Shown: piece by piece, positions 5,475-54,263 of the stretch
Numbering within the stretch: the stretch's first letter is position 1
Layout: each line of letters opens with the position of its first letter
NCBI GenBank assembly: GCA_016934315.1
Contig: JAFGSY010000008.1
Location: forward strand, 1 to 58,067
Length of the DNA stretch: 58,067 nucleotides
DNA from: Candidatus Anaeroferrophillus wilburensis
GTDB lineage: Bacteria; Desulfobacterota; Anaeroferrophillalia; Anaeroferrophillales; Anaeroferrophillaceae
Direction of reading: 5' to 3'
Made by a program: the position numbers and the translations under genes
Notes under the pieces: generated by a model
What the model saw: only the letters and a program-made list of their open reading frames with translations
What the model was told of the DNA's origin: nothing
The model's database searches: none

Positions 5475-6869
5475 ATGAAGGGAACCCTGATTATTCCCAT
5501 TGAGAATCAGGTCCGTGAGCTTGATCCTAAGTTGCTGTTGGCTTGCATCGCCGTTCGGCAAGGATTTTCCGTCATTATCGGTTCGCGGCAAGAGATTGAT
5601 TTTCATATTGCCAGCTTTCCCCCCAGCCTCTATCTGGCGAAAAGCATGACCGCCCGCAGCGTCAAAATGTTTCGCATTATGCGGCAGTTGGGCCATGCGA
5701 TTGCGGTATGGGATGAAGAGGCCCTGATCCATCCGCCAGCTGAGACCTACTTTACCCGTCGACTTTCCCCCGCAGCGATCTCTCAGGTTTCCCACCTGTT
5801 TGCCTGGGGGGAAGACAATAGCCATCTCTGGCGGCAGTATCCTCACCTGCCTGCCGGCTTGCCCATCCATGTTACCGGCAATCCCCGGGGTGACATGCTG
5901 CGACCGGACATGCAGCCTTTTTTTGCCGCCGAGGTTCGGCAGCGGCGGCAGGAGCACGGCGACTTTATCTTGATCAATACCAACTTCAGTTTTGTCAACG
6001 CTTTCTATCCTGAGTTGAACCTTTTCCAGTCGGCTGAAAATCCTGGCCAGCTGCCAGCCTATGGCCGGGCGGCAGTGGGGATGGAGCGTCATTTTGCGGA
6101 GAACCTGCGGGACCACAAACAGGCCGTTTTTGCCGATTTTCAGCGGTTGATCCCCGCGCTGGAACGGGAATTTCCCCAGCTGACCATTATTGTCCGACCC
6201 CACCCGATAGAGAACCCGAGGGTTTACCATGACCTTGCCGCCCGCTGCTCCCGCGTTGTCGTGACCAATGAGGGGAATGTGATCCCCTGGCTGCTGGCCG
6301 CTAAGGCGGTCATCCATAACGGTTGTACCACCGGTGTGGAGGCCTATATCATGGGGGTGCCGGCTCTCAGTTATCAAGCCACGGTCAATGAGGAGCTTGA
6401 CTATGGTTTTTACCGGCTGCCCAATCTGTTGAGTCACCAGTGTTTTGATTTTGCCAGTTTGCGAGAGACGATTGCCAAAATTCTGGCAGGTGATCTGGGG
6501 GCTGCCGGCGGCGATGAACGGAGGAAACTGATGGCCGGCTACCTGACCTCTCAAGATGGTCCACTGGCCAGTGAGCGGATTGTCAGCGTGGCAGAAGAGA
6601 TTTTTGCGGCCAGTGATTGTTGGCCAACATCGACGCTGCCCGAAAGGCTGGCTGGGCGTTTCCAGGCCAGCCGACGTCGGCTGGCAAAATATCTCAAATC
6701 CTTCCAGCTCCAGTCGAAATACAGACCGGAATTTCAGCGTTATCGCTATCCCGGCCTGTCACCAGCAGCACTGGAAGAGCGCCTGGAAAGGCTGCGGCAG
6801 GTACTTGGTCAACCGGCAGTCCTGCGGACCAGGCAGCTTACTACCCATATCTTCCGAATCACTTCCTGA
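5475..6869 (+). CDS. Surface carbohydrate biosynthesis protein (GT-B / CDP-glycerol transferase-like)
   Basis: The 464-residue protein resembles the surface carbohydrate biosynthesis family found near NeuB and NeuA genes. It opens with TLIIPIENQVRELDPKLLLA and has an acidic VWDEEAL segment near residue 78. The glycosyltransferase-like C-terminal half has VTGNPRGDMLRP near residue 135, IIVRPHPIENPR near 240, and a nucleotide-binding HNGCTTGVEAYIMGVP near 280. The two PHP/HNGCT motifs resemble the GT-B fold of CDP-glycerol glycerophosphotransferases. It probably transfers or polymerises a sugar made by the upstream genes at the cytoplasmic face. Its last 11 bases overlap the convergent gene on the other strand. 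Confidence 0.75.
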   Translation: MKGTLIIPIENQVRELDPKLLLACIAVRQGFSVIIGSRQEIDFHIASFPPSLYLAKSMTARSVKMFRIMRQLGHAIAVWDEEALIHPPAETYFTRRLSPAAISQVSHLFAWGEDNSHLWRQYPHLPAGLPIHVTGNPRGDMLRPDMQPFFAAEVRQRRQEHGDFILINTNFSFVNAFYPELNLFQSAENPGQLPAYGRAAVGMERHFAENLRDHKQAVFADFQRLIPALEREFPQLTIIVRPHPIENPRVYHDLAARCSRVVVTNEGNVIPWLLAAKAVIHNGCTTGVEAYIMGVPALSYQATVNEELDYGFYRLPNLLSHQCFDFASLRETIAKILAGDLGAAGGDERRKLMAGYLTSQDGPLASERIVSVAEEIFAASDCWPTSTLPERLAGRFQASRRRLAKYLKSFQLQSKYRPEFQRYRYPGLSPAALEERLERLRQVLGQPAVLRTRQLTTHIFRITS

Positions 6870-7809
6870 TCGACGATGTATGTCCGCTATTGACGGGATT
6901 GGCCGCTGTTACCGAAGTGATCGCTTCCTTGAGCTTGAAGTGAATCCGGCCGAGAGTTGGCAGGGATCCGCTGATGTGCAAGGGGATGCCTGAGGCATCA
7001 TCGACTACCATGGATATCTCTCCTTTCAGACCCAAAAATGAAAACTCCTCCCTCTCTTCTGTCGCTTCGTTCAGCGGCCTGCTGACCAGCCGAATGCCGT
7101 GGACAGGCGACGGTTGGTTTTTGCCTAAAAGGTTGTTGCCGGGCAGCTGAATTTCAGCGGCGTCAGCGTCCAGGCTTGCCAATCGCACCTGGAGAAACTG
7201 TTTTTTGTTGAAAACCGTTAGCGTAGAACCTATTCGGCAGTCCGTCGGCTGGGCCGTAAGGTGGAAGAACAGCAGTGACGGCTCCGAGACCGGTACCATC
7301 GATGTCAACTGCGGCGGTCGGGGATAAAAGCTTTCCTCTCGATCAGTCCATTGCTCCGGCGGCAGACCGAACTCATCGGGACCGGCTGGCTGCAGCCTGA
7401 TGCGACGTACTCCCTCGGCAGTAACCCAGTAGAATTTTTGGTAGCTGTCCGTTCCTGTTCGGCTCCGAACCCTGGCGACCGCCTCGCCGGAGCTGGCCAG
7501 AAACCAGACCCTGCTGTGCAGTACTTTGTTGGCAGTCAGGAAAGGCTTGACAGTAGTCGTGGTGGAGAGGGCTAGACAGCCGGATGGCAGCTGCCAGCCG
7601 TTATGGCCGCTAAACAATGCCGGCAGCACATCGGCTGACAGCGTGATTTCAACTGTGGCGGTGCCCATGATGGTTTTTGTTTCATATATCAGTTTCTGCC
7701 ACGATACTGGTCTGAGGTTTGGGGAAGAACACAAGGTTTCCTGCCCCCATGACCGGTTGCCAGGAAGTATCAAGCTGAGCAAAAGCAGGAAGAATAGCAA
7801 AATTTTCAT
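6859..7809 (-). CDS. Secreted protein of unknown function, DUF3108-like
   Basis: The 316-residue protein begins with a clear signal peptide (MKILLFFLLLLSLILPG, cleavage near GNRSWGQ), so it is exported to the periplasm. The body is rich in beta-strand patterns and ends with GIPLHISGSLPTLGRIHFKL, similar in style to DUF3108 and related periplasmic proteins. I cannot prove the family from the sequence alone. It is convergent with the surface-carbohydrate gene and overlaps its end by 11 bases. It is not clearly in an operon with the methyltransferase gene 130 bases upstream. No catalytic motif is recognisable. Confidence 0.65.
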   Translation of the reverse strand: MKILLFFLLLLSLILPGNRSWGQETLCSSPNLRPVSWQKLIYETKTIMGTATVEITLSADVLPALFSGHNGWQLPSGCLALSTTTTVKPFLTANKVLHSRVWFLASSGEAVARVRSRTGTDSYQKFYWVTAEGVRRIRLQPAGPDEFGLPPEQWTDREESFYPRPPQLTSMVPVSEPSLLFFHLTAQPTDCRIGSTLTVFNKKQFLQVRLASLDADAAEIQLPGNNLLGKNQPSPVHGIRLVSRPLNEATEEREEFSFLGLKGEISMVVDDASGIPLHISGSLPTLGRIHFKLKEAITSVTAANPVNSGHTSSIRK

Positions 7810-7941
7810 GCAGGGGTAGTGGTATAATGTTCAGTGGATGAATGCATGCCTTGCAGCTTATGATTAAAAGTGACGAATTTTTGTTGTCGAAGAAAAGCAG
7901 GCTATCTGCCACGTACAGCAGGACCTGGTTTAAGGGTAAAT

Positions 7942-8895
7942 TCAGCTGCTGTTTTGGGCCCGCTTAAAGCGCCATTTGACAATTCCCTTACGTGTCATTC
8001 TGAGTGCGTACCAAAACTGTCTGACGGGCTGTGGGGCGGTATGCCTCTTGAATGCGAGCAACGTTTTTCTCCTGATCTCCTCTGGATCATCTAGCTCCAT
8101 GTCCAGCAAATCCTTTGGAAAGCCACGGGAACTGACCACTCTGACTGATCCCCCATGAAGGCCATAGGATGTTGACAGCACGCTTAAGCCGGATATCTCG
8201 AAAAGAGCCCTGAGAGAACGTTCAGTGTGATAGCAGAGGTGGGCTGTATGGATTGAAACCGGATGCTTTCCATAGTTTGTCTGCCACTCGGCATTGGGAA
8301 CTTCCGCACATAAAAGTCCGTCCCTGGCCAAAAGGCTGCCTGCACATTGCAGAAACTTCCCTGGATTTTCACTGTGCTCGAGTACGTGTGAGCAGGTAAC
8401 GATGTCGTATGAACCTGGCTGGTCAGTGGCATATTGCTCTAGGGATCCTGAGTACACGTCGAATCCTCTCTCTTGAAGGCGTTTTGCATGCCTAACAGAA
8501 GGCTCTATGCCTGACACCGAGGCGCCTCTGGTTTTGGCCTCGGTAATGAGGAAACCATGGCCGCAGCCTATGTCCAACAGTCGGAGCCCTTGTAATAGTC
8601 GGTGGTTTCCCACGGCATCCAGAATCTCCTTGGCAATCCGGTGCTTCCTTTTGACCCATGTGGGGTTCTCGGATTTTTTGTCCATTGAGTATTGTTTATA
8701 ATAGTTTGAGGAGTAGAATTGTGTCAGTCCCTCATCATCCATTCTGGGGTTGAGTTGCCGCAAACCGCAGGTCTTACATACACTCAGCGAGACGGGTTGG
8801 CTATGTCTGTCAGTCCAATCGATGACATGTATGAAATCATTACGCCCACAGAGAAGACATGGATATGATTGTAGAATTTGCTGGTTTGACTTCAT
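7942..8895 (-). CDS. Zinc-ribbon class I SAM-dependent methyltransferase
   Basis: The 317-residue protein has an N-terminal zinc ribbon with CxxC pairs at C13/C16 and C40/C43, followed by a class I methyltransferase fold. The SAM-binding motif LLDIGCGHG spans about residues 106-114, and VTCSHVLEHSENPGKFL is motif IV/post-IV. This architecture is common in sugar or O-antigen methyltransferases near polysaccharide clusters, so a glycan substrate is likely but not shown. I chose the ATG at 8895, preceded by AAGGA eight bases upstream. An upstream ATG at 8955 would add 20 residues with no homology features. An AT-rich gap lies behind it. Confidence 0.78.
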   Translation of the reverse strand: MKSNQQILQSYPCLLCGRNDFIHVIDWTDRHSQPVSLSVCKTCGLRQLNPRMDDEGLTQFYSSNYYKQYSMDKKSENPTWVKRKHRIAKEILDAVGNHRLLQGLRLLDIGCGHGFLITEAKTRGASVSGIEPSVRHAKRLQERGFDVYSGSLEQYATDQPGSYDIVTCSHVLEHSENPGKFLQCAGSLLARDGLLCAEVPNAEWQTNYGKHPVSIHTAHLCYHTERSLRALFEISGLSVLSTSYGLHGGSVRVVSSRGFPKDLLDMELDDPEEIRRKTLLAFKRHTAPQPVRQFWYALRMTRKGIVKWRFKRAQNSS

Positions 8896-9348
8896 TCTGT
8901 GATTCCTTACGTTGAATGAGGGGAGTAGCGAAGTTGAGTGAAAGGAGTTATGCAAATAGGGTAAAAATTAATAAATACGAGTAGTTGATAAAGAGAAACC
9001 TTTATGATTATTGCTGGTTGCAACCAAAAAATACCTATCAAAAACAGAATCTTATCATAGAATTCAGGAATATCAAGTTGATGGTAAAAAAACAACTTAA
9101 AAGAGAATCTCCTGAAAAACACCTTCCCCACGAATTAGCTGCCGGACCTTCAGGGATCGGCGGTTGTCCGCAGGCTGCTTCTACAAGCTGTAATCGCTAC
9201 AGGTGGCTTTTTCTTTTTCACATTATTGACCCCTACTTGTTCTTCTGTTAAGTGGTATGCAGGAATAGCGGGCGGATTGCCAAGTGATCATTGCCTGACA
9301 ATGGTGATTGCGATTTTTCTTTCAGCGGCAGAAAGGTTATTTTATTCC
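8896..9348. other. 453-base AT-rich intergenic gap between divergent genes
   Basis: This stretch separates the minus-strand methyltransferase from the plus-strand hydantoinase gene. It must hold both 5' ends. It is visibly more AT-rich than its flanks from about 8940 to 9110. One 88-codon plus-strand frame (8985-9251) exists, but its product matches nothing I know and its second half looks random. I see no tRNA, terminator or clear repeat. Confidence 0.4.
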
Positions 9349-45949: not shown

Positions 45950-46024
45950 AATGGTCGATTTAGGTAGGTCAGGTTGTAGTAGGAAATTTCCGTTAACCCG
46001 TTTTAAGCTTATGGAGGGATGCTG

Positions 46025-46888
46025 ATGAGCTTAAAGAGCAAATTTGACGCAGGGGAATTTGTCACTTTGGCAGAGATGGAACCCCCGAAAGGGGTTGATG
46101 TTTTGGCTATGATTACCAATGCCAATCAGGTCAAATACAAAGTCGATGCTTTTGTTGTACCCGAGATGAGCAATGCAGTCATGCGCATGAGCTCCCTCGG
46201 CGGCGCGCTGATTCTGCAAAATAAGGGCCTGGAAACGATTATGCAGGTTAATTGTCGGGACCGCAATCAGCTTGCTCTGCAGGCGGACCTTTTGGCCGCC
46301 GGTGCTGCCGGGGTTAGTGGTGTTATTGCCGTACCCGGTGACGATCCGGTGATTGGGGATCATCATCAGGCCAAATCGGTGTATGACCTTGATATGAACC
46401 AGCTTCTGCAGGCGGCCAACGGCCTGCGAAATGGTACCGATCTCGCCGGCAACAGTCTGGCTGGAGCTCCCGGGTTTCTGCTTGGGGCCTCCGTTAATGC
46501 CGGTGCCAAGGATAAGGCGCTGGCTCAGGAAATTAAAAAAGCTAAAGAGAGCATTGATGCCGGTGCCCGGTTTCTGATAACCAATCCTTTGTTTGAGCTT
46601 AATTCCATTGATTCATTCATTGACCAGTTTGGCGGCAGCAAAGCAACGATAATTCCGACGGTGCTGGTGCTTAAATCAGTTGGGATGGCACGCTATATCA
46701 ACCAGACCCAGGAGCACATCTCAATTCCCGATGCTTTGATCGAGCGTATCCGCAAGGCATCCGACAAACCGGCCGAGTGTATTCGCATCGCCAGGGAGAT
46801 GATTTCTGCCATCCACGATGCCGGGTTTGGCGGCGTGCTGATCTCCACCGTTGGTTGGGAGCATAGACTGCCGGAAATCTTACCCTGA
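46025..46888 (+). CDS. metF: Methylenetetrahydrofolate reductase family protein (short MetF)
   Basis: The 287-residue protein is a MetF-type TIM barrel: EFVTLAEMEPPKGVD at the start, then QVNCRDRNQLALQADLLAAGAAGVSGVIAVPGDDP, the FAD- and folate-binding region, and FLITNPLFEL near residue 180. MetF reduces methylene-tetrahydrofolate to methyl-tetrahydrofolate, a step of methionine synthesis and of the Wood-Ljungdahl pathway. The ATG at 46025 has GGAGG seven bases upstream; the ATG at 46019 is too close to that site. It is followed by a receiver gene and a larger MetF fusion, which suggests a specialised methyl branch. Confidence 0.87.
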   Translation: MSLKSKFDAGEFVTLAEMEPPKGVDVLAMITNANQVKYKVDAFVVPEMSNAVMRMSSLGGALILQNKGLETIMQVNCRDRNQLALQADLLAAGAAGVSGVIAVPGDDPVIGDHHQAKSVYDLDMNQLLQAANGLRNGTDLAGNSLAGAPGFLLGASVNAGAKDKALAQEIKKAKESIDAGARFLITNPLFELNSIDSFIDQFGGSKATIIPTVLVLKSVGMARYINQTQEHISIPDALIERIRKASDKPAECIRIAREMISAIHDAGFGGVLISTVGWEHRLPEILP

Positions 46889-46991: not shown

Positions 46992-47381
46992 ATGAGCGAG
47001 AAAAAGAAAATTCTTGTGGTGGACGATGAGCCTGATTTCTCTTCCATTGTGAAGACCAATCTGGAAGCAGAGGGTTTTGCTGTCGATGTTGCCTATAATG
47101 GGGTAGAGGGGCTGGCAAAGGTAAAGGCCGATCCCCCGGATGCGATTGTCCTCGACGTTATGATGCCTGAAAAGGATGGTTACCAGGTGTGCGCCGAACT
47201 GAAAGCTGATGCGAAATATGCTGACATCCCTATTGTTATGCTGACGGCGGTGGCTTCTCACGTCAGTTCGACCCGCTATTCACACCATGGCGGGATGAGC
47301 ATGGAAGCTGATGATTATCTTCCCAAACCAGCTTCGGCAGAGCAGATTAGCGCCAGTGTCAAAAGGGTTCTAGGTCTGTAG
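46992..47381 (+). CDS. Stand-alone response-regulator receiver protein
   Basis: The 129-residue protein is a single REC domain with the acidic pair at D11/D12, phosphoacceptor D55 (VLDVMMP), T85 (MLTA) and K112 (DDYLPKPA), so it should be phosphorylatable. No output domain follows. The insert SHVSSTRYSHHGGMSMEADDY before the lysine is unusual. It lies between the short MetF and a MetF that carries a receiver-like domain. GGAGG precedes the ATG. A phosphorylated partner role for the MetF proteins is a hypothesis. Confidence 0.93.
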   Translation: MSEKKKILVVDDEPDFSSIVKTNLEAEGFAVDVAYNGVEGLAKVKADPPDAIVLDVMMPEKDGYQVCAELKADAKYADIPIVMLTAVASHVSSTRYSHHGGMSMEADDYLPKPASAEQISASVKRVLGL

Positions 47382-48025: not shown

Positions 48026-50014
48026 ATGGAAAAAGTGAACAAAAAAACCAAGGTTCTAGTGGTGGGCAGCGAGTCGGCTTTCCATGATATGATAGGCAAG
48101 AGCCTCGAAGATCAGTTTGAAGTCATTAGTGCTTCCAACGACGACGAGGGTTTGTCTAAAGCCAGGACCGAGCGGCCGGATGCGATTGTGTTGGGATACC
48201 TTGAACCTCGGGGAACCTCATTCAAGCTGCATAAGAAATTTCGCAGCGGTTGGTTGACCAAGCACACCCCATTACTGATTGTTGAAATTGGCAGTTCAGA
48301 ACTGTCGCAGAAGGGGTGGACGAGACAGGAAGCCCTGGAAATGGATGCCGATGACTACATTACCATTTCTCCAGAGGATTCAGCATCGATCTCCCGTTTG
48401 AAGGAGTCGGTGGGCTTGACCGAAAAGATTACCATCAGAATGAGCGAGCGGGAAAGTGTTCTCAAAGAGAAACTGCGTGACCCCAATGCATTCTGCGTGA
48501 CCTGGGAACAGATTCCCGGCCGCGGTGCCTTTGAGATGCAGCATGAAGAGGTGATTGACAATGTTGCCAAGGCTGCCGCCGGCGGTAAAATCGATGCCAT
48601 CAGCGTTACCGACAACCCTGGCGGTAATCCGGCGCTGTCAACCGAAATGCTCTGTGTGCAGATTAAGAAAGCCGGGATGGAACCACTGGTTCATCTGGCC
48701 TGTAGAGATAAGAACCGTAGTGAGATTGAGAGCCTGCTCTGTGGTATGGCCGCCGAAGGAGTCAAAAATATCCTGGTGTTGACCGGCGACTATTCAGGCA
48801 GTGATGCCTTTGAAGGCTTGGCGAAACCGGTGTTTGACCTTGATCCTCCCAACGTCCTGCGCCTTGTAGGCGAGATGAATAAGGGGCTCGAGCACAAGGC
48901 AATGCGTAAGACCATCAAACTTGCTGCTACGGATCTGTTTGCCGGTGCTTGTGTTTCACCCTTCAAAAAGTGTGAATCCGAGCTGATGGGGCAGTACGCC
49001 AAGCTGAAGAAAAAGATTGAAGGCGGCGCCCAGTTCATTATCACCCAAGTTGGTTATGATGCCAGAAAATACCATGAACTGCTGACCTGGCTGCGGCTTA
49101 ACAACTATAATATTCCGGTGCTGGTTAATATCTATGTGCTGCCCTATGGCGCCGCCCGATTTATGAATTCCAACGGGATTCCCGGTTGCGTGGTTACCGA
49201 TAAGATGCTGGCCGATCTGGCCCGGGAAAAAGAGGCTGATGACAAGGGCAAGGCTGCCATGCTGCTGAGAGCCGCCAAGATGTATGCCTATGCCAAGGGT
49301 ATGGGTTGTGCCGGGGCTCACATCGGTGGTCACGGGATTACCTACGAACAGGTGGAATACATTATTGACAAGGGTGAGGAGCTGTCGGCAAACTGGGAGA
49401 GCCTGGTGCCTGAATTTGACTATCCTCAGGATGATGGTTTTTATCTTTTCGAAAAAGATGAAAAGACCGGCTTGAATACCGACGTCTATGCCCAACGGAC
49501 TTCAAAGCCGTCCGTACCCTTTATCTATCGCTTCTCACGTCTGGCCCACCATCTGCTCTTCGAGGAGAAGAGTCCGGTCTACAAAACCATGAAACCGGTG
49601 GCCGCCTGGTTGGATAACACCCATACGCCCAAACATATGTTTGATTTCTTTGAGCATATGTCGAAGGTGGCGATGTTTAACTGCATGAACTGCGGTGACT
49701 GTGCCCTGTTCGATACTGCCTATGTCTGTCCCATGTCACAATGCCCGAAGAACCAGCGGAACGGACCTTGCGGCGGCAGCTACGACGGCTGGTGTGAGGT
49801 GTACCCCAATGAGAAGAAGTGCATCTGGGTGCAGGCCTATGATCGCTTGAAGCCCTATAAAGAGGAAGATAAGATTGCCGCCTACACCGTGCCGCCGTGC
49901 AACTGGAACCTGTGGCAGACCTCTTCCTGGCTCAATTTTTATCAGGGCCGCGACCATACAGCCAAAAGGCTGGGTATTAAGCCGCCGCCTAAAAAGGATG
50001 CCGCAAAGAAATAA
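48026..50014 (+). CDS. Pseudo-receiver / MetF / MTHFR_C fusion protein
   Basis: The 662-residue protein has three parts. Residues 7-132 resemble a receiver domain (TKVLVVGSESAFHDMIGKSLE; DAIVLGYLEP; MDADDYITISPED), but the acidic pair is G14/S15, the phosphoacceptor position is G57 and the lysine position is I114, so it cannot be phosphorylated in the normal way. Residues about 150-445 form a MetF-type barrel (VTDNPGGNPALSTEMLC, VLTGDYSG, IITQVGYDARKY). Residues about 550-625 form MTHFR_C, with many cysteines (CMNCGDC, CPMSQCPKNQRNGPCGG). MTHFR_C is found in Wood-Ljungdahl methyl-branch enzymes. The ATG at 48026 has AGGAG six bases upstream. Confidence 0.87.
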   Translation: MEKVNKKTKVLVVGSESAFHDMIGKSLEDQFEVISASNDDEGLSKARTERPDAIVLGYLEPRGTSFKLHKKFRSGWLTKHTPLLIVEIGSSELSQKGWTRQEALEMDADDYITISPEDSASISRLKESVGLTEKITIRMSERESVLKEKLRDPNAFCVTWEQIPGRGAFEMQHEEVIDNVAKAAAGGKIDAISVTDNPGGNPALSTEMLCVQIKKAGMEPLVHLACRDKNRSEIESLLCGMAAEGVKNILVLTGDYSGSDAFEGLAKPVFDLDPPNVLRLVGEMNKGLEHKAMRKTIKLAATDLFAGACVSPFKKCESELMGQYAKLKKKIEGGAQFIITQVGYDARKYHELLTWLRLNNYNIPVLVNIYVLPYGAARFMNSNGIPGCVVTDKMLADLAREKEADDKGKAAMLLRAAKMYAYAKGMGCAGAHIGGHGITYEQVEYIIDKGEELSANWESLVPEFDYPQDDGFYLFEKDEKTGLNTDVYAQRTSKPSVPFIYRFSRLAHHLLFEEKSPVYKTMKPVAAWLDNTHTPKHMFDFFEHMSKVAMFNCMNCGDCALFDTAYVCPMSQCPKNQRNGPCGGSYDGWCEVYPNEKKCIWVQAYDRLKPYKEEDKIAAYTVPPCNWNLWQTSSWLNFYQGRDHTAKRLGIKPPPKKDAAKK

Positions 50015-50237: not shown

Positions 50238-51080
50238 TTGTATACCGTAAGCTCGCCGGATAAAAGTGCCGCCAACATCTTTGGCTTGTTAAGCGATGAC
50301 CGGGCCTACGATTCTCCTGCACCGGTGGTTTATCGCAATCTGATGGCCAGGGCAGGAATGGCTGGCAGTTACACTGCTTTTAAGGTTGATCCCGGCAAAC
50401 TTGAAGCGGCTGTCCAGGGCTTGGGAGCCCTCAATATCATTGCCGCCAATATTGGTGTTCCCTACCAGGAGGAGATTATCCCCCATCTTTTCGCCCTTTC
50501 CGAGGGAGCAAAAATTATTGGTGCGGTTAATACCATTTTTCGTCATGGTCTGTACTATAAAGGGTATAATACCAATGCCCTGGGCCTGATGGATGCTCTG
50601 CATGCCGTTGGTTTCCACACAGGTGCCAGTAAATCTGCCTTGGTTCTTGGCGCCGGCGGCGCTGCCCGGGCGGCGGTCTTCCTTTTCCACTGGCTGGGAA
50701 TTCCTGCCATTACTGTTGCCGCCCGCCGCCTGGATCAGGCCAAAAAGCTTGCTGCCCATCTTGGCGGGGCACAGCCGGTTTCTTTTGCTGATCTTGCCGA
50801 TCGGCCGGTTGCAGGGCAGATTGTTGTCAATGCAACCTCGTCAGCCGGTTGCGTGCCGGAGCTGTCTGCGTTTGTGAAGGGTCTGGTATGCCGTGAATGT
50901 TGCATCGTGGTGAATTTTAATGCTGCTGACAGCCAGGGGAATATCTGGCAGGAACTGGCAGAACGCCTGGAAGTGCCCTATATGGGCGGGCTGCCTATCC
51001 TGGGGCACCAGGCCAGGCATGCCCTTGCCCTTTGGACCGGGGTCAGGATTCCTCCTGAGGCCGTGCAGGAGATTCTTTGA
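50238..51080 (+). CDS. Shikimate dehydrogenase-like protein lacking the catalytic Lys/Asp pair
   Basis: The 280-residue protein has the AroE fold: an N-terminal substrate domain and a C-terminal NADP Rossmann domain with LVLGAGGAARAA near residue 136. AroE enzymes use a lysine in NVTxPxK and an aspartate in NTDxxG. Here the same positions read NIGVPYQ (Q77) and NTNALG (N113). The C-terminal glutamine in GHQARHALALW is kept. The protein therefore probably does another reaction than shikimate dehydrogenation, or has a binding role. The start is TTG at 50238 with AAGGAG five bases upstream. It is isolated from metF by a terminator. Confidence 0.8.
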   Translation: MYTVSSPDKSAANIFGLLSDDRAYDSPAPVVYRNLMARAGMAGSYTAFKVDPGKLEAAVQGLGALNIIAANIGVPYQEEIIPHLFALSEGAKIIGAVNTIFRHGLYYKGYNTNALGLMDALHAVGFHTGASKSALVLGAGGAARAAVFLFHWLGIPAITVAARRLDQAKKLAAHLGGAQPVSFADLADRPVAGQIVVNATSSAGCVPELSAFVKGLVCRECCIVVNFNAADSQGNIWQELAERLEVPYMGGLPILGHQARHALALWTGVRIPPEAVQEIL

Positions 51081-51214: not shown

Positions 51215-52714
51215 CTATCGCTGACTGCCGTTGCCGCTTGCCGCAGCTGCCGGCAGCCTGACGGTGAAGGTCGTGCCCTTATCGGGCTCACTTGCAACCG
51301 TGATCGAGCCGTTCAGTTTTTCCACCAGGCTTTTGACAATGGATAGTCCCAGCCCGGTACCGGTAATGTAACGGGTTTTTTCATTTTTAACCCGGTAAAA
51401 CTTGTCAAATATCTTTTCCAGCTGTCTGGCTTCCATGCCATAACCGTTGTCAATAACCGCCACTTGTATCTGGCTGTCAACCTGTTCAACTTCTACCTTG
51501 ATGGTGCCGCCCTCCTGGGTATACTTGATGGCATTGGCAATCAGGTTGCCGAAAATACTTTCCAGTGCCATCGGGTCGGCAACAACATCCGGCAGCGCTA
51601 TTTCCGGCAGTTCCAGGGATAGCGTCTGGTTTCTCCCCTGGGCCTGCGCACCGATGAAATCAACGATATTGGCCAGCAGTTCAGCCAGGGAAACCGGTTT
51701 GGCTACGGCGCCCATATTGCCGGCTTCTATGCGGGAGAGATCCAGCAGGTCGCCAATGAGGGAGATCAGGCCTTGGGTTTTTTCGCGGGCCCGCGACAGG
51801 ATATATTGATCTTTGGTCGGTTTCTTCTCCACCATGACCAGTTGTTCATGGATGGTTGACAGGGGGGAGCGCAATTCATGGGAGACCTTGGCAACAAATT
51901 CTGATTTCAGCTGATCCAAAGCTTTCAATGCCGTTACGTCAACCAGAATTACCACCGCGCCTAGACAGTCATCTTCTTCATTGACAATTGCCTGCCCCTC
52001 AGCCAGCAGAAACTTATTGTCCGGCAGGGCAAACTCGTAGGTTGGGGGTTCCTTCATATTTTCGCAGCCGCCATGGGACAACTCCCTGACCATGCGGCAG
52101 AAGCCTTCATCATTACTGTAGTGCTCGATCTCCCTTCCCGGTTTCATCTCGGCATCAAGGCCGAGGCACCAGAGAAAAGCGGGGTTCATGAGAACGACCA
52201 CCCCTTCCGTATTGGTTACGACCACCCCGCTGGGCAGGGCCTCGATGATTGTCCTGGTACGGCTTTTTTCGGCATCGAGATCAGCCAGGGTCCGCTGTCG
52301 TTCTTTTTCCAGCTGTTCGGCTTCATTGAAAAGGTGCACCCGCTCCTGGGCCCGACGGACGACAATCCGCAGATGGTCAGGTTCAAAGGGCTTTGGAATG
52401 AAATCATAGGCCCCCATTTTCATCGCTTCAATGGCTGTTTCAACGGTGGCAAAGCCGGTGATGACAATGACAACAATCTCCTCATTAATCTTTTTTATTC
52501 TTTCCAGTACTTCCATGCCATCCATGCCCGGCATTTTAAGGTCAAGGAGGACGATTGCCACGGGTTCCTGTTCGATGATCTTCAGCCCTTCATCACCCCG
52601 GGCTGCTTTGGAAACCCGAAACCCCATGCGTATTAATATACGCTCAGAGCCATCCCGCAGGTCCTGCTCATCATCAACTACCAGCACGTGTAAAGGGTCG
52701 ATTTTTTTATTCAC
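51215..52714 (-). CDS. REC-PAS-histidine kinase (hybrid sensor kinase)
   Basis: The 499-residue cytoplasmic protein begins with a receiver domain (LHVLVVDDEQDL, phosphoacceptor in LLDLKMPGMDG, K in FIPKPF). A PAS domain follows (IIEALPSGVVVTNTEGVVVLMNPAFLWCLG), then HisKA with the phosphohistidine in KVSHELRSPLSTI and an HATPase_c domain (VIDNGYGMEARQLEKIFDKFYR, GTGLGLSIVKSL). A receiver at the N terminus suggests phosphorelay input. The GTG at 52714 has AGGAGGAGAG upstream and overlaps the end of the upstream kinase gene by eight bases, so both are made together. Confidence 0.9.
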   Translation of the reverse strand: MNKKIDPLHVLVVDDEQDLRDGSERILIRMGFRVSKAARGDEGLKIIEQEPVAIVLLDLKMPGMDGMEVLERIKKINEEIVVIVITGFATVETAIEAMKMGAYDFIPKPFEPDHLRIVVRRAQERVHLFNEAEQLEKERQRTLADLDAEKSRTRTIIEALPSGVVVTNTEGVVVLMNPAFLWCLGLDAEMKPGREIEHYSNDEGFCRMVRELSHGGCENMKEPPTYEFALPDNKFLLAEGQAIVNEEDDCLGAVVILVDVTALKALDQLKSEFVAKVSHELRSPLSTIHEQLVMVEKKPTKDQYILSRAREKTQGLISLIGDLLDLSRIEAGNMGAVAKPVSLAELLANIVDFIGAQAQGRNQTLSLELPEIALPDVVADPMALESIFGNLIANAIKYTQEGGTIKVEVEQVDSQIQVAVIDNGYGMEARQLEKIFDKFYRVKNEKTRYITGTGLGLSIVKSLVEKLNGSITVASEPDKGTTFTVRLPAAAASGNGSQR

Positions 52715-54263
52715 GCTCTCCTCCTTCCATATCCTGGGCAGCCAGCGGCAGAGTGACAATAAAGGTTGTTCCTGTACCGGGTTTGCTTTTGGCAATGATA
52801 TTGCCACCGTGATTTTCGACAATGCCGTAGACCATGCTCAGCCCCAGGCCGGTTCCCTTGCCTTCTTCCTTGGTGGTGAAAAAGGGGTCGAAAATATGGG
52901 GTAAGACCTCCTCGGGAATGCCGGCACCGGTATCGGAAATTTCGATGCACAGACGATCACCATGGGAGGGCAGCCAGCAGAAAGGATATTCGAGTACCGG
53001 CGTGTCGCCGTCTTCAGTGTAAATGCGCTCCCCGGCCTTTGGCAGCCGGGTGATGATGGTCAGCTTTCCTTTGCCGTCCATGGCATCAACGGCGTTGAGA
53101 ATGATATTCATCAGCATATGGTTGAGCTGCTGGGTGTCGGCGTGCACCTGGGGGAGGTTATCAGTCAGATGTTTTTCAATGGTGATGTTTTGAAAGATCG
53201 GCTGGCTTTCCAGGAGAAACATGGTCCGGTTGATCGCCTGATTGATATCGCAAGGCTGCATGAACTGGCGGGTTTGACGTGAAAATTCCAGCAGCTCCTT
53301 CACCGTATCCCGGCATCGCTCAGCGTCACGCAGTATGCGGCGCAGGTCCTCCTGAACTTCGGTGGACAGTTCATTTTCCTCCATTACCAGCTTGGTGAAC
53401 AGGATAATGCCTCCCAGGGGGTTGTTGAGCTGGTGGGCGACGCCGGCGGCCAGCTTGCCGAGAGAGGCCATTTTTTCCGACTGCAGCAGCTGCTGCTGGG
53501 TTTTTTCCAGCTCCTTTTCCATTTGAATGGTTCCCCGGAGGTCACGGAAAAAACCGATGGTTGCCACTTCCTGGTCATCCTTGTAGACGATGGAGGCATT
53601 CAGGCGAACCGGAATCCGCTGGCCATTTTTCCCCAGCAAGTCCACGTGGTGCCCTTTCAGTTTTCCCTTGCCGCCATACTCTTCACTCCTCAGTTTCCGC
53701 ATGACATCGGCTGCTTCGTTCTCATTGGCATAAATGTTATTCACATGCAGCTTTTCGAGGGCTTCATCGATTGTGTAGCCAAGGATCTCGGAAACGGCAT
53801 TATTGAAAATAACCAGTTTGCCGGTTTTGTCAGCGGCAACAACACCGTCAACGGAACTCAGCAGCAGGTTGTGCAGAAAGGTGCTGGACTGGTTCATCTG
53901 CTCTTCCAGCCAGACCTGGACGGGCAGATCAAAGTCGACGACCACCAAGGCGTCAATCTCGCCGTTGAAGAAGAGAGGGTAGCTGAAGACGCAGGCCATC
54001 TTGCGCTGGGAGATGTCGTGTTTGCCGATATAGGTGGGTGTGCGGGTATGGAGTGATTCCAGCACCGGACAGTGTTCACAGGGACCATCAATTCCTTTGA
54101 ACTGTTCGTAGCAGAACCGGCCGTTCAGCTCGATATCCTGGTCCATCTGACCCTGCTTGTTGACGGCCAGGATGCGGAAATCGGGGGAGATGACAATTAG
54201 TTTCCTTTTAAACGCATGGATGGCCCTGAAGAGATAGTCCTGCTGTTTGCCGGTCAGTTGCAT
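52707..54263 (-). CDS. PAS-domain sensor histidine kinase
   Basis: The 518-residue protein lacks membrane helices. It has an N-terminal PAS-like sensing region with the cysteine pair CEHC (residues near 59-62). A second PAS at about 130-245 (VDGVVAADKTGKLVIFNNAVSEILGYT) carries a C-terminal PAC part. A HisKA with H in VAHQLNNPLGGI and HATPase_c (DTGAGIPEEVLPHIFDPFFTTK, GTGLGLSMVYGI) follow. It should autophosphorylate and pass phosphate to the REC-PAS kinase encoded in the overlapping next gene. AAGGA lies eight bases before the ATG at 54263; the longer frame to 54341 is not supported. Confidence 0.88.
   Translation of the reverse strand: MQLTGKQQDYLFRAIHAFKRKLIVISPDFRILAVNKQGQMDQDIELNGRFCYEQFKGIDGPCEHCPVLESLHTRTPTYIGKHDISQRKMACVFSYPLFFNGEIDALVVVDFDLPVQVWLEEQMNQSSTFLHNLLLSSVDGVVAADKTGKLVIFNNAVSEILGYTIDEALEKLHVNNIYANENEAADVMRKLRSEEYGGKGKLKGHHVDLLGKNGQRIPVRLNASIVYKDDQEVATIGFFRDLRGTIQMEKELEKTQQQLLQSEKMASLGKLAAGVAHQLNNPLGGIILFTKLVMEENELSTEVQEDLRRILRDAERCRDTVKELLEFSRQTRQFMQPCDINQAINRTMFLLESQPIFQNITIEKHLTDNLPQVHADTQQLNHMLMNIILNAVDAMDGKGKLTIITRLPKAGERIYTEDGDTPVLEYPFCWLPSHGDRLCIEISDTGAGIPEEVLPHIFDPFFTTKEEGKGTGLGLSMVYGIVENHGGNIIAKSKPGTGTTFIVTLPLAAQDMEGGERE

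Follow-up and report, generated by a model that had tools for sequence, protein, structure and literature searches.

A pseudo-receiver domain fused to a methylenetetrahydrofolate reductase within a conserved two-component gene neighbourhood

Introduction

Response regulators with enzymatic output join an N-terminal receiver to a metabolic enzyme, and multiple fusions of this kind have been reported (PMC5847659), so an earlier sequence-only reading of the present DNA went too far in calling the joining of receiver domains to metabolic enzymes rare. The single-domain receiver FixT inhibits the kinase FixL without phosphorylation (PMC7078487), and the atypical regulator ChxR is described as a protein whose receiver fold has unusual phosphorylation residues or works independently of phosphorylation (PMC3960148). 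On the enzyme side, the type II MetVF of acetogens, as in Clostridium ljungdahlii, consists of separate MetV and MetF subunits; its cofactors are FMN and, in each MetV, two 4Fe-4S clusters, and its donor is reduced ferredoxin (PMC8760232).

Here we describe a fusion of a receiver-like domain with a methylenetetrahydrofolate reductase (MTHFR), encoded in the window, i.e., the whole 58,067-nucleotide stretch of Candidatus Anaeroferrophillus wilburensis DNA that was analysed. The domain order is that of response regulators with enzymatic output, but the enzymes surveyed in PMC5847659 carry receiver domains in general, whereas the fused MTHFR family has lost the phosphosite throughout and is accompanied by a separate canonical receiver. 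We found no report of a receiver-MTHFR fusion in the open-licence literature. Receiver-enzyme fusions and pseudo-receivers are both already known; what appears to be new is the joining to MTHFR in an unusually well-conserved signalling context.

Results

The fusion protein is encoded by a single open reading frame preceded directly by a CAGGAG ribosome-binding motif, which is common to its relatives. It comprises the following parts:

48026..50014, forward strand: fusion protein of 662 amino acids, pseudo-receiver followed by MetF barrel and MetV-like Cys-rich (MTHFR_C) domain
48044..48415, forward strand: pseudo-receiver domain, residues ~7-130, with G14/S15, G57 and I114 replacing DD, D and K
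48461..49465, forward strand: MetF barrel, residues ~146-480, with E161, D255 and Q341
49637..49906, forward strand: MetV-like MTHFR_C domain (PF12225), residues 538-627

Both enzyme families named in the sequence-only reading were recovered above their Pfam cut-offs, PF02219 (MTHFR) with 71 bits against 24 and PF12225 with 101 bits against 23. The receiver assignment was less direct. Residues 1-135 scored 18.2 bits (E=0.0029) with Response_reg (PF00072), under the gathering cut-off of 30.2, so this search by itself did not recover a receiver, while the NCBIfam PhoB profile matched residues 8-115 at 39 bits. A profile of the fused family found the receivers of Bacillus subtilis PhoP (4e-8) and E. 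coli PhoB (7e-8) in the PDB, and its matches included the pseudo-receiver FrzS (PDB 2gkg), whose receiver fold has unusual phosphorylation residues or acts without phosphorylation. The AlphaFold2 model of the domain alone, computed from a 15-sequence alignment, shows the order b1 a1 b2 a2 b3 a3 b4 a4 b5 a5 with a pLDDT of 72.6; its best Foldseek matches are the receivers of PhoP, MicA and VicR (E 4e-8 to 2e-7), the top matches are all receivers, and the TM-score normalised to the target is ~0.7. The receiver layout proposed from the letters of the sequence thus agrees with both structure prediction and profile searches.

The alignment also bears out each of the proposed losses: the acidic pair is G14/S15, the phospho-Asp position is G57 and the Lys position is I114, and it is because these residues are missing that we call the domain a pseudo-receiver. 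Gly at the phospho-Asp position and loss of the Lys were found in 21/21 aligned fused homologues from two phyla, in line with the earlier view that the domain cannot be phosphorylated normally. The protein therefore shares with response regulators of enzymatic output an N-terminal receiver fold joined to an enzyme, but not control through phosphorylation of its own receiver Asp. Pairwise dN/dS (NG86) of the pseudo-receiver was ~0.03-0.07 in most pairs and 0.18 in one recent pair, with dS near saturation, and the domain is under purifying selection.

Could the fusion be an artefact of a frameshift, an assembly join or a chance resemblance to receivers? The sub-threshold Pfam match would fit such an explanation, but the receiver fold does not, nor does the recurrence of the fusion as a single clade in about 25 independently assembled genomes, partial ones counted. 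Full-length fused homologues, 67-91% identical within the window's phylum and ~58% in Dehalococcoidia, show the join to be intact across genomes of two phyla and, in our judgement, rule the artefact out with near certainty.

The enzyme part retains the hallmarks of its family. E161, D255 and Q341, invariant in 13 fused proteins, align with Glu28, Asp120 and Gln183 of E. coli MetF, an equivalence read from alignments; the roles of these E. coli residues have been reviewed (PMC11094777). Eight Cys of the MetV-like domain (553, 556, 559, 568, 573, 582, 590 and 599), candidate Fe-S/Zn ligands, are invariant as well. Because the catalytic residues and the eight Cys are kept, the fusion is probably a competent MetVF-type MTHFR. 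It resembles the acetogen enzyme in combining a MetF barrel with a Cys-rich MetV, but the C. ljungdahlii enzyme consists of two subunits and has no receiver (PMC8760232), whereas the protein in the window unites both parts and a pseudo-receiver in one chain and has two-component genes linked to it. The Wood-Ljungdahl marker CdhC/ACS is present in the same genome, so the step catalysed by the fusion would belong to that pathway.

Fused full-length homologues were found in the window's own family and its sister family (including a Candidatus Anaeroferrophillacea MAG and Candidatus Tharpella), in further families of the same phylum (G279, G167, G045 and G140) and in Dehalococcoidia; the phyla sampled were the window's own and Chloroflexota, and a contig scan with peptides of the fusion protein in the window detects close relatives only. 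In a survey of the window's phylum covering 297 genomes, the majority of matches had no pseudo-receiver and were either MetF on its own or single-chain MetFV proteins of ~520 aa. In a wider sample of 350 Chloroflexota genomes no fused member was seen except in G307. Long open frames around Chloroflexota MetFV matches were considered as additional fusions and rejected by eye, as they had the look of GC-rich read-through with no visible upstream receiver. The single-chain MetFV proteins of the same and related genomes share the MetF and MetV chain, with 51-58% identity there, but have no N-terminal receiver, fall in a separate clade and lack this type of signalling genes alongside. The 21 fused proteins group together in the MetFV tree as a single clade (support 97/91) with one subgroup per phylum, and a single clade also holds the pseudo-receivers (SH-aLRT 100). 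Since both parts are monophyletic, the fusion most simply arose once.

We then compared the surroundings of the fusion gene. On the forward strand of the window a small MetF gene, a receiver gene, the fusion and an AroE-like gene follow one another, and two kinase genes lie on the opposite strand:

46019..46888, forward strand: small MetF-like protein of 289 aa that retains the Glu and Asp but has Asn in place of the pterin-binding Gln
46992..47381, forward strand: canonical stand-alone receiver of 129 aa with its phosphorylation residues (DD, D, T and K) intact
50238..51080, forward strand: AroE-like protein, catalytic Lys replaced by Q77 and Asp by N113, start uncertain (50238 or 50271)
51215..52822, reverse strand: REC-PAS-histidine kinase, lacking any strongly hydrophobic stretch of the sort seen in membrane helices
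52707..54341, reverse strand: PAS-histidine kinase, likewise lacking any such strongly hydrophobic stretch

The adjacent receiver is canonical, as the sequence-only reading had it, and the two kinases and the second MetF and AroE-like proteins, which that reading did not mention, belong to the conserved set as well. Judged from their sequences, the kinases, both PAS sensors, are probably cytosolic. The N-terminal part of the PAS-histidine kinase contains a GPCEHCP motif, possibly a redox or metal site. The receiver and fusion genes are separated by 645 bases, which together with the opposite orientation of the kinases leaves co-transcription unproven and is a point against the two-component reading set out below. 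A regulatory RNA in this gap was considered and dropped, as Rfam gave nothing notable and alignments of the gap shared little besides the ribosome-binding site.

Searches with tblastn recovered the window's gene set in relatives, and Dehalococcoidia have equivalents in a cNMP-binding hybrid kinase, a receiver and a small MetF. A receiver and/or kinase was linked to the fusion at 19 of 24 informative loci (13/14 in the window's phylum, 6/10 in Dehalococcoidia), a count in which some contigs end short of the full set, and a second, small MetF was usual. A canonical receiver as conserved neighbour is what a docking or allosteric role of the pseudo-receiver, as proposed in the sequence-only reading, predicts; it is the usual companion of the fusion but not a universal one, no nearby copy being present at four of the ten Dehalococcoidia loci and at one in the window's phylum. 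As the kinases are conserved with the fusion too, they are equally possible docking partners. Neither domain searches nor inspection found a DNA-binding response regulator or output in the fusion clusters. In some relatives a MetF / NarI-like / 4Fe-4S / cytochrome c3 / MetV module lies beside the cluster (L072:3555-8264, L068:9001-12395, L074 ~6612-9085), and it also occurs on contig C38 of the window's genome; it is possibly a membrane-linked, energy-conserving MTHFR.

The five loci without a linked receiver are those of four Dehalococcoidia (G348, G316, G353 and G354) and of G140, and they count against a dedicated signalling role of the fusion. Three of the five genomes nevertheless keep the set beside other MetF/MetV genes. 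G140 carries its kinase/receiver set on a different contig together with a small MetF and MetV. A transposase-like gene adjoins the G140 fusion (L070:727-2430), and an insertion element may have split the cluster. In G353 and G354 genes for a histidine kinase, MetF and two receivers lie interspersed among MetV genes at a locus separate from the fusion (L116:1-5000, L117:1000-7100), and these receivers group with the fusion-linked receivers in the tree. No close receiver homologue was found in G348 and G316, both incomplete MAGs. Retention of the fusion in the four Dehalococcoidia would be expected if the pseudo-receiver were a structural or oligomerisation domain only, the kinases and receiver acting elsewhere, the cluster reflecting shared physiology and the fusion being an ordinary MTHFR isozyme. 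We consider this unlikely in view of the linkage at most loci in two phyla, the persistence of receivers and kinase among MetF/MetV genes in G353 and G354, and the behaviour of unfused MetFV, 18/21 of whose neighbourhoods gave no match to the set while the other three (G030, G021 and G223) matched it only through generic kinases or receivers, at a weak 27-32%.

The two further partners resemble enzymes that have lost catalytic residues. The pterin-binding Gln of the small MetF is replaced by Asn, Ser, Pro or Thr in 10/10 homologues from the window's phylum and is kept in 3/3 Dehalococcoidia, and from its sequence the protein looks like an MTHFR-derived subunit or sensor. AroE catalysis depends on a Lys and an Asp, and the 50238 protein has neither; in its family the Asp is lost in 10/10 aligned sequences, and G279 and G167 still have the Lys. 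The window's genome encodes a canonical AroE elsewhere (contig C17), with NVTIPHK and NTD, and the AroE-like protein may bind another ligand.

Such partners raise the possibility that information flows in the reverse direction, with the enzyme as sensor. MetF-MetV, the small MetF and the AroE-like protein would bind ligands (folate C1 units, flavin or Fe-S electrons, or a shikimate-like ligand), the pseudo-receiver would dock on the kinases and switch them, and the receiver would signal to an unlinked target. Ligand sensors often look like degenerate enzymes, docking on kinases is inherent to receiver domains, and the kinases are conserved together with the fusion. FixT, which controls its kinase in the unphosphorylated state (PMC7078487), is a model for this arrangement, its receiver fold serving protein contact as proposed here, but FixT is free-standing, whereas the pseudo-receiver is built into an enzyme. 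Retention of the catalytic residues in the fusion and the lack of any linked or conserved output downstream of the receiver do not fit, and we hold reverse flow to be a serious but rather improbable alternative, roughly a one-in-four matter.

We further searched the pseudo-receiver for candidate contact surfaces and noted two segments:

48248..48268, forward strand: GWI loop, residues 75-81, after helix alpha3, conserved in 21/21 aligned sequences, a signature of the fused family
48320..48364, forward strand: alpha4-beta5 segment, residues 99-113, with the motif M[DE]A[DE][DE]Y

The M[DE]A[DE][DE]Y motif is lost in the four Dehalococcoidia fusions without linked receiver or kinase and is degenerate only where the signalling partners are unlinked. 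Identity over alpha4-beta5 is 24% among these four proteins versus 44% between the partner-bearing sequences of the two phyla, and their GWI loops are 100% identical. The pattern is suggestive, and only that, of an alpha4-beta5 segment facing the signalling partner and an alpha3/GWI surface facing the enzyme, an assignment weakened by the origin of the alpha4-beta5 signal in one clade on a long branch. Domain contacts from a model of the full-length fusion were dropped because the model confidence was too low.

Discussion

A receiver that cannot be phosphorylated in the normal manner has long been kept on this enzyme, usually beside a phosphorylatable receiver and kinases and with no DNA-binding output, and for this reason our best reading is a two-component system that has the MTHFR complex as its output (or input) and the pseudo-receiver as docking module. 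We put at about 0.5 the probability that a dedicated two-component system without DNA-binding output targets the fusion. In the mechanism that we infer, the PAS kinases 51215 and 52707 would phosphorylate the stand-alone receiver 46992, and the phosphorylated receiver, or a kinase itself, would dock on the pseudo-receiver, probably via its alpha4-beta5-alpha5 face. The conserved alpha3/LHxxLRxGWI surface would relay this state to the MetF-MetV enzyme, and docking would determine the activity or assembly of an MTHFR complex, or the electron partner that it uses; the small MetF and the AroE-like protein would belong to this complex. As its reaction we expect the 5,10-methylene-THF/5-methyl-THF conversion, a Wood-Ljungdahl step. 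In its most specific form, a phosphorelay would act post-translationally in two phyla of anaerobes and gate the methyl-branch reductase of the Wood-Ljungdahl pathway by way of a heterodimer between a phosphorylatable receiver and the enzyme's own pseudo-receiver, with the degenerate MetF and AroE proteins as subunits or ligand sensors, a proposal that we offer tentatively, at odds well below even.

Placed among proteins with comparable domains, FrzS and ChxR (PMC3960148) are motility or DNA-binding proteins, whereas the pseudo-receiver in the window sits in one-carbon metabolism. The fusion offers a natural test of the role of a non-phosphorylatable receiver, being found in two phyla, with a likely partner adjacent and with relatives in which that partner is unlinked.

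To our knowledge, the switching of one-carbon flux through the Wood-Ljungdahl pathway in anaerobes is poorly understood. With a working receiver and sensor kinases in the conserved cluster, and a DNA-binding regulator absent from it, the data suggest a signalling pathway that acts directly on MTHFR or reads its state. If this is true, the dedicated kinase/receiver set attached to this MTHFR isozyme would represent a direct, testable two-component control of central carbon metabolism without transcription.
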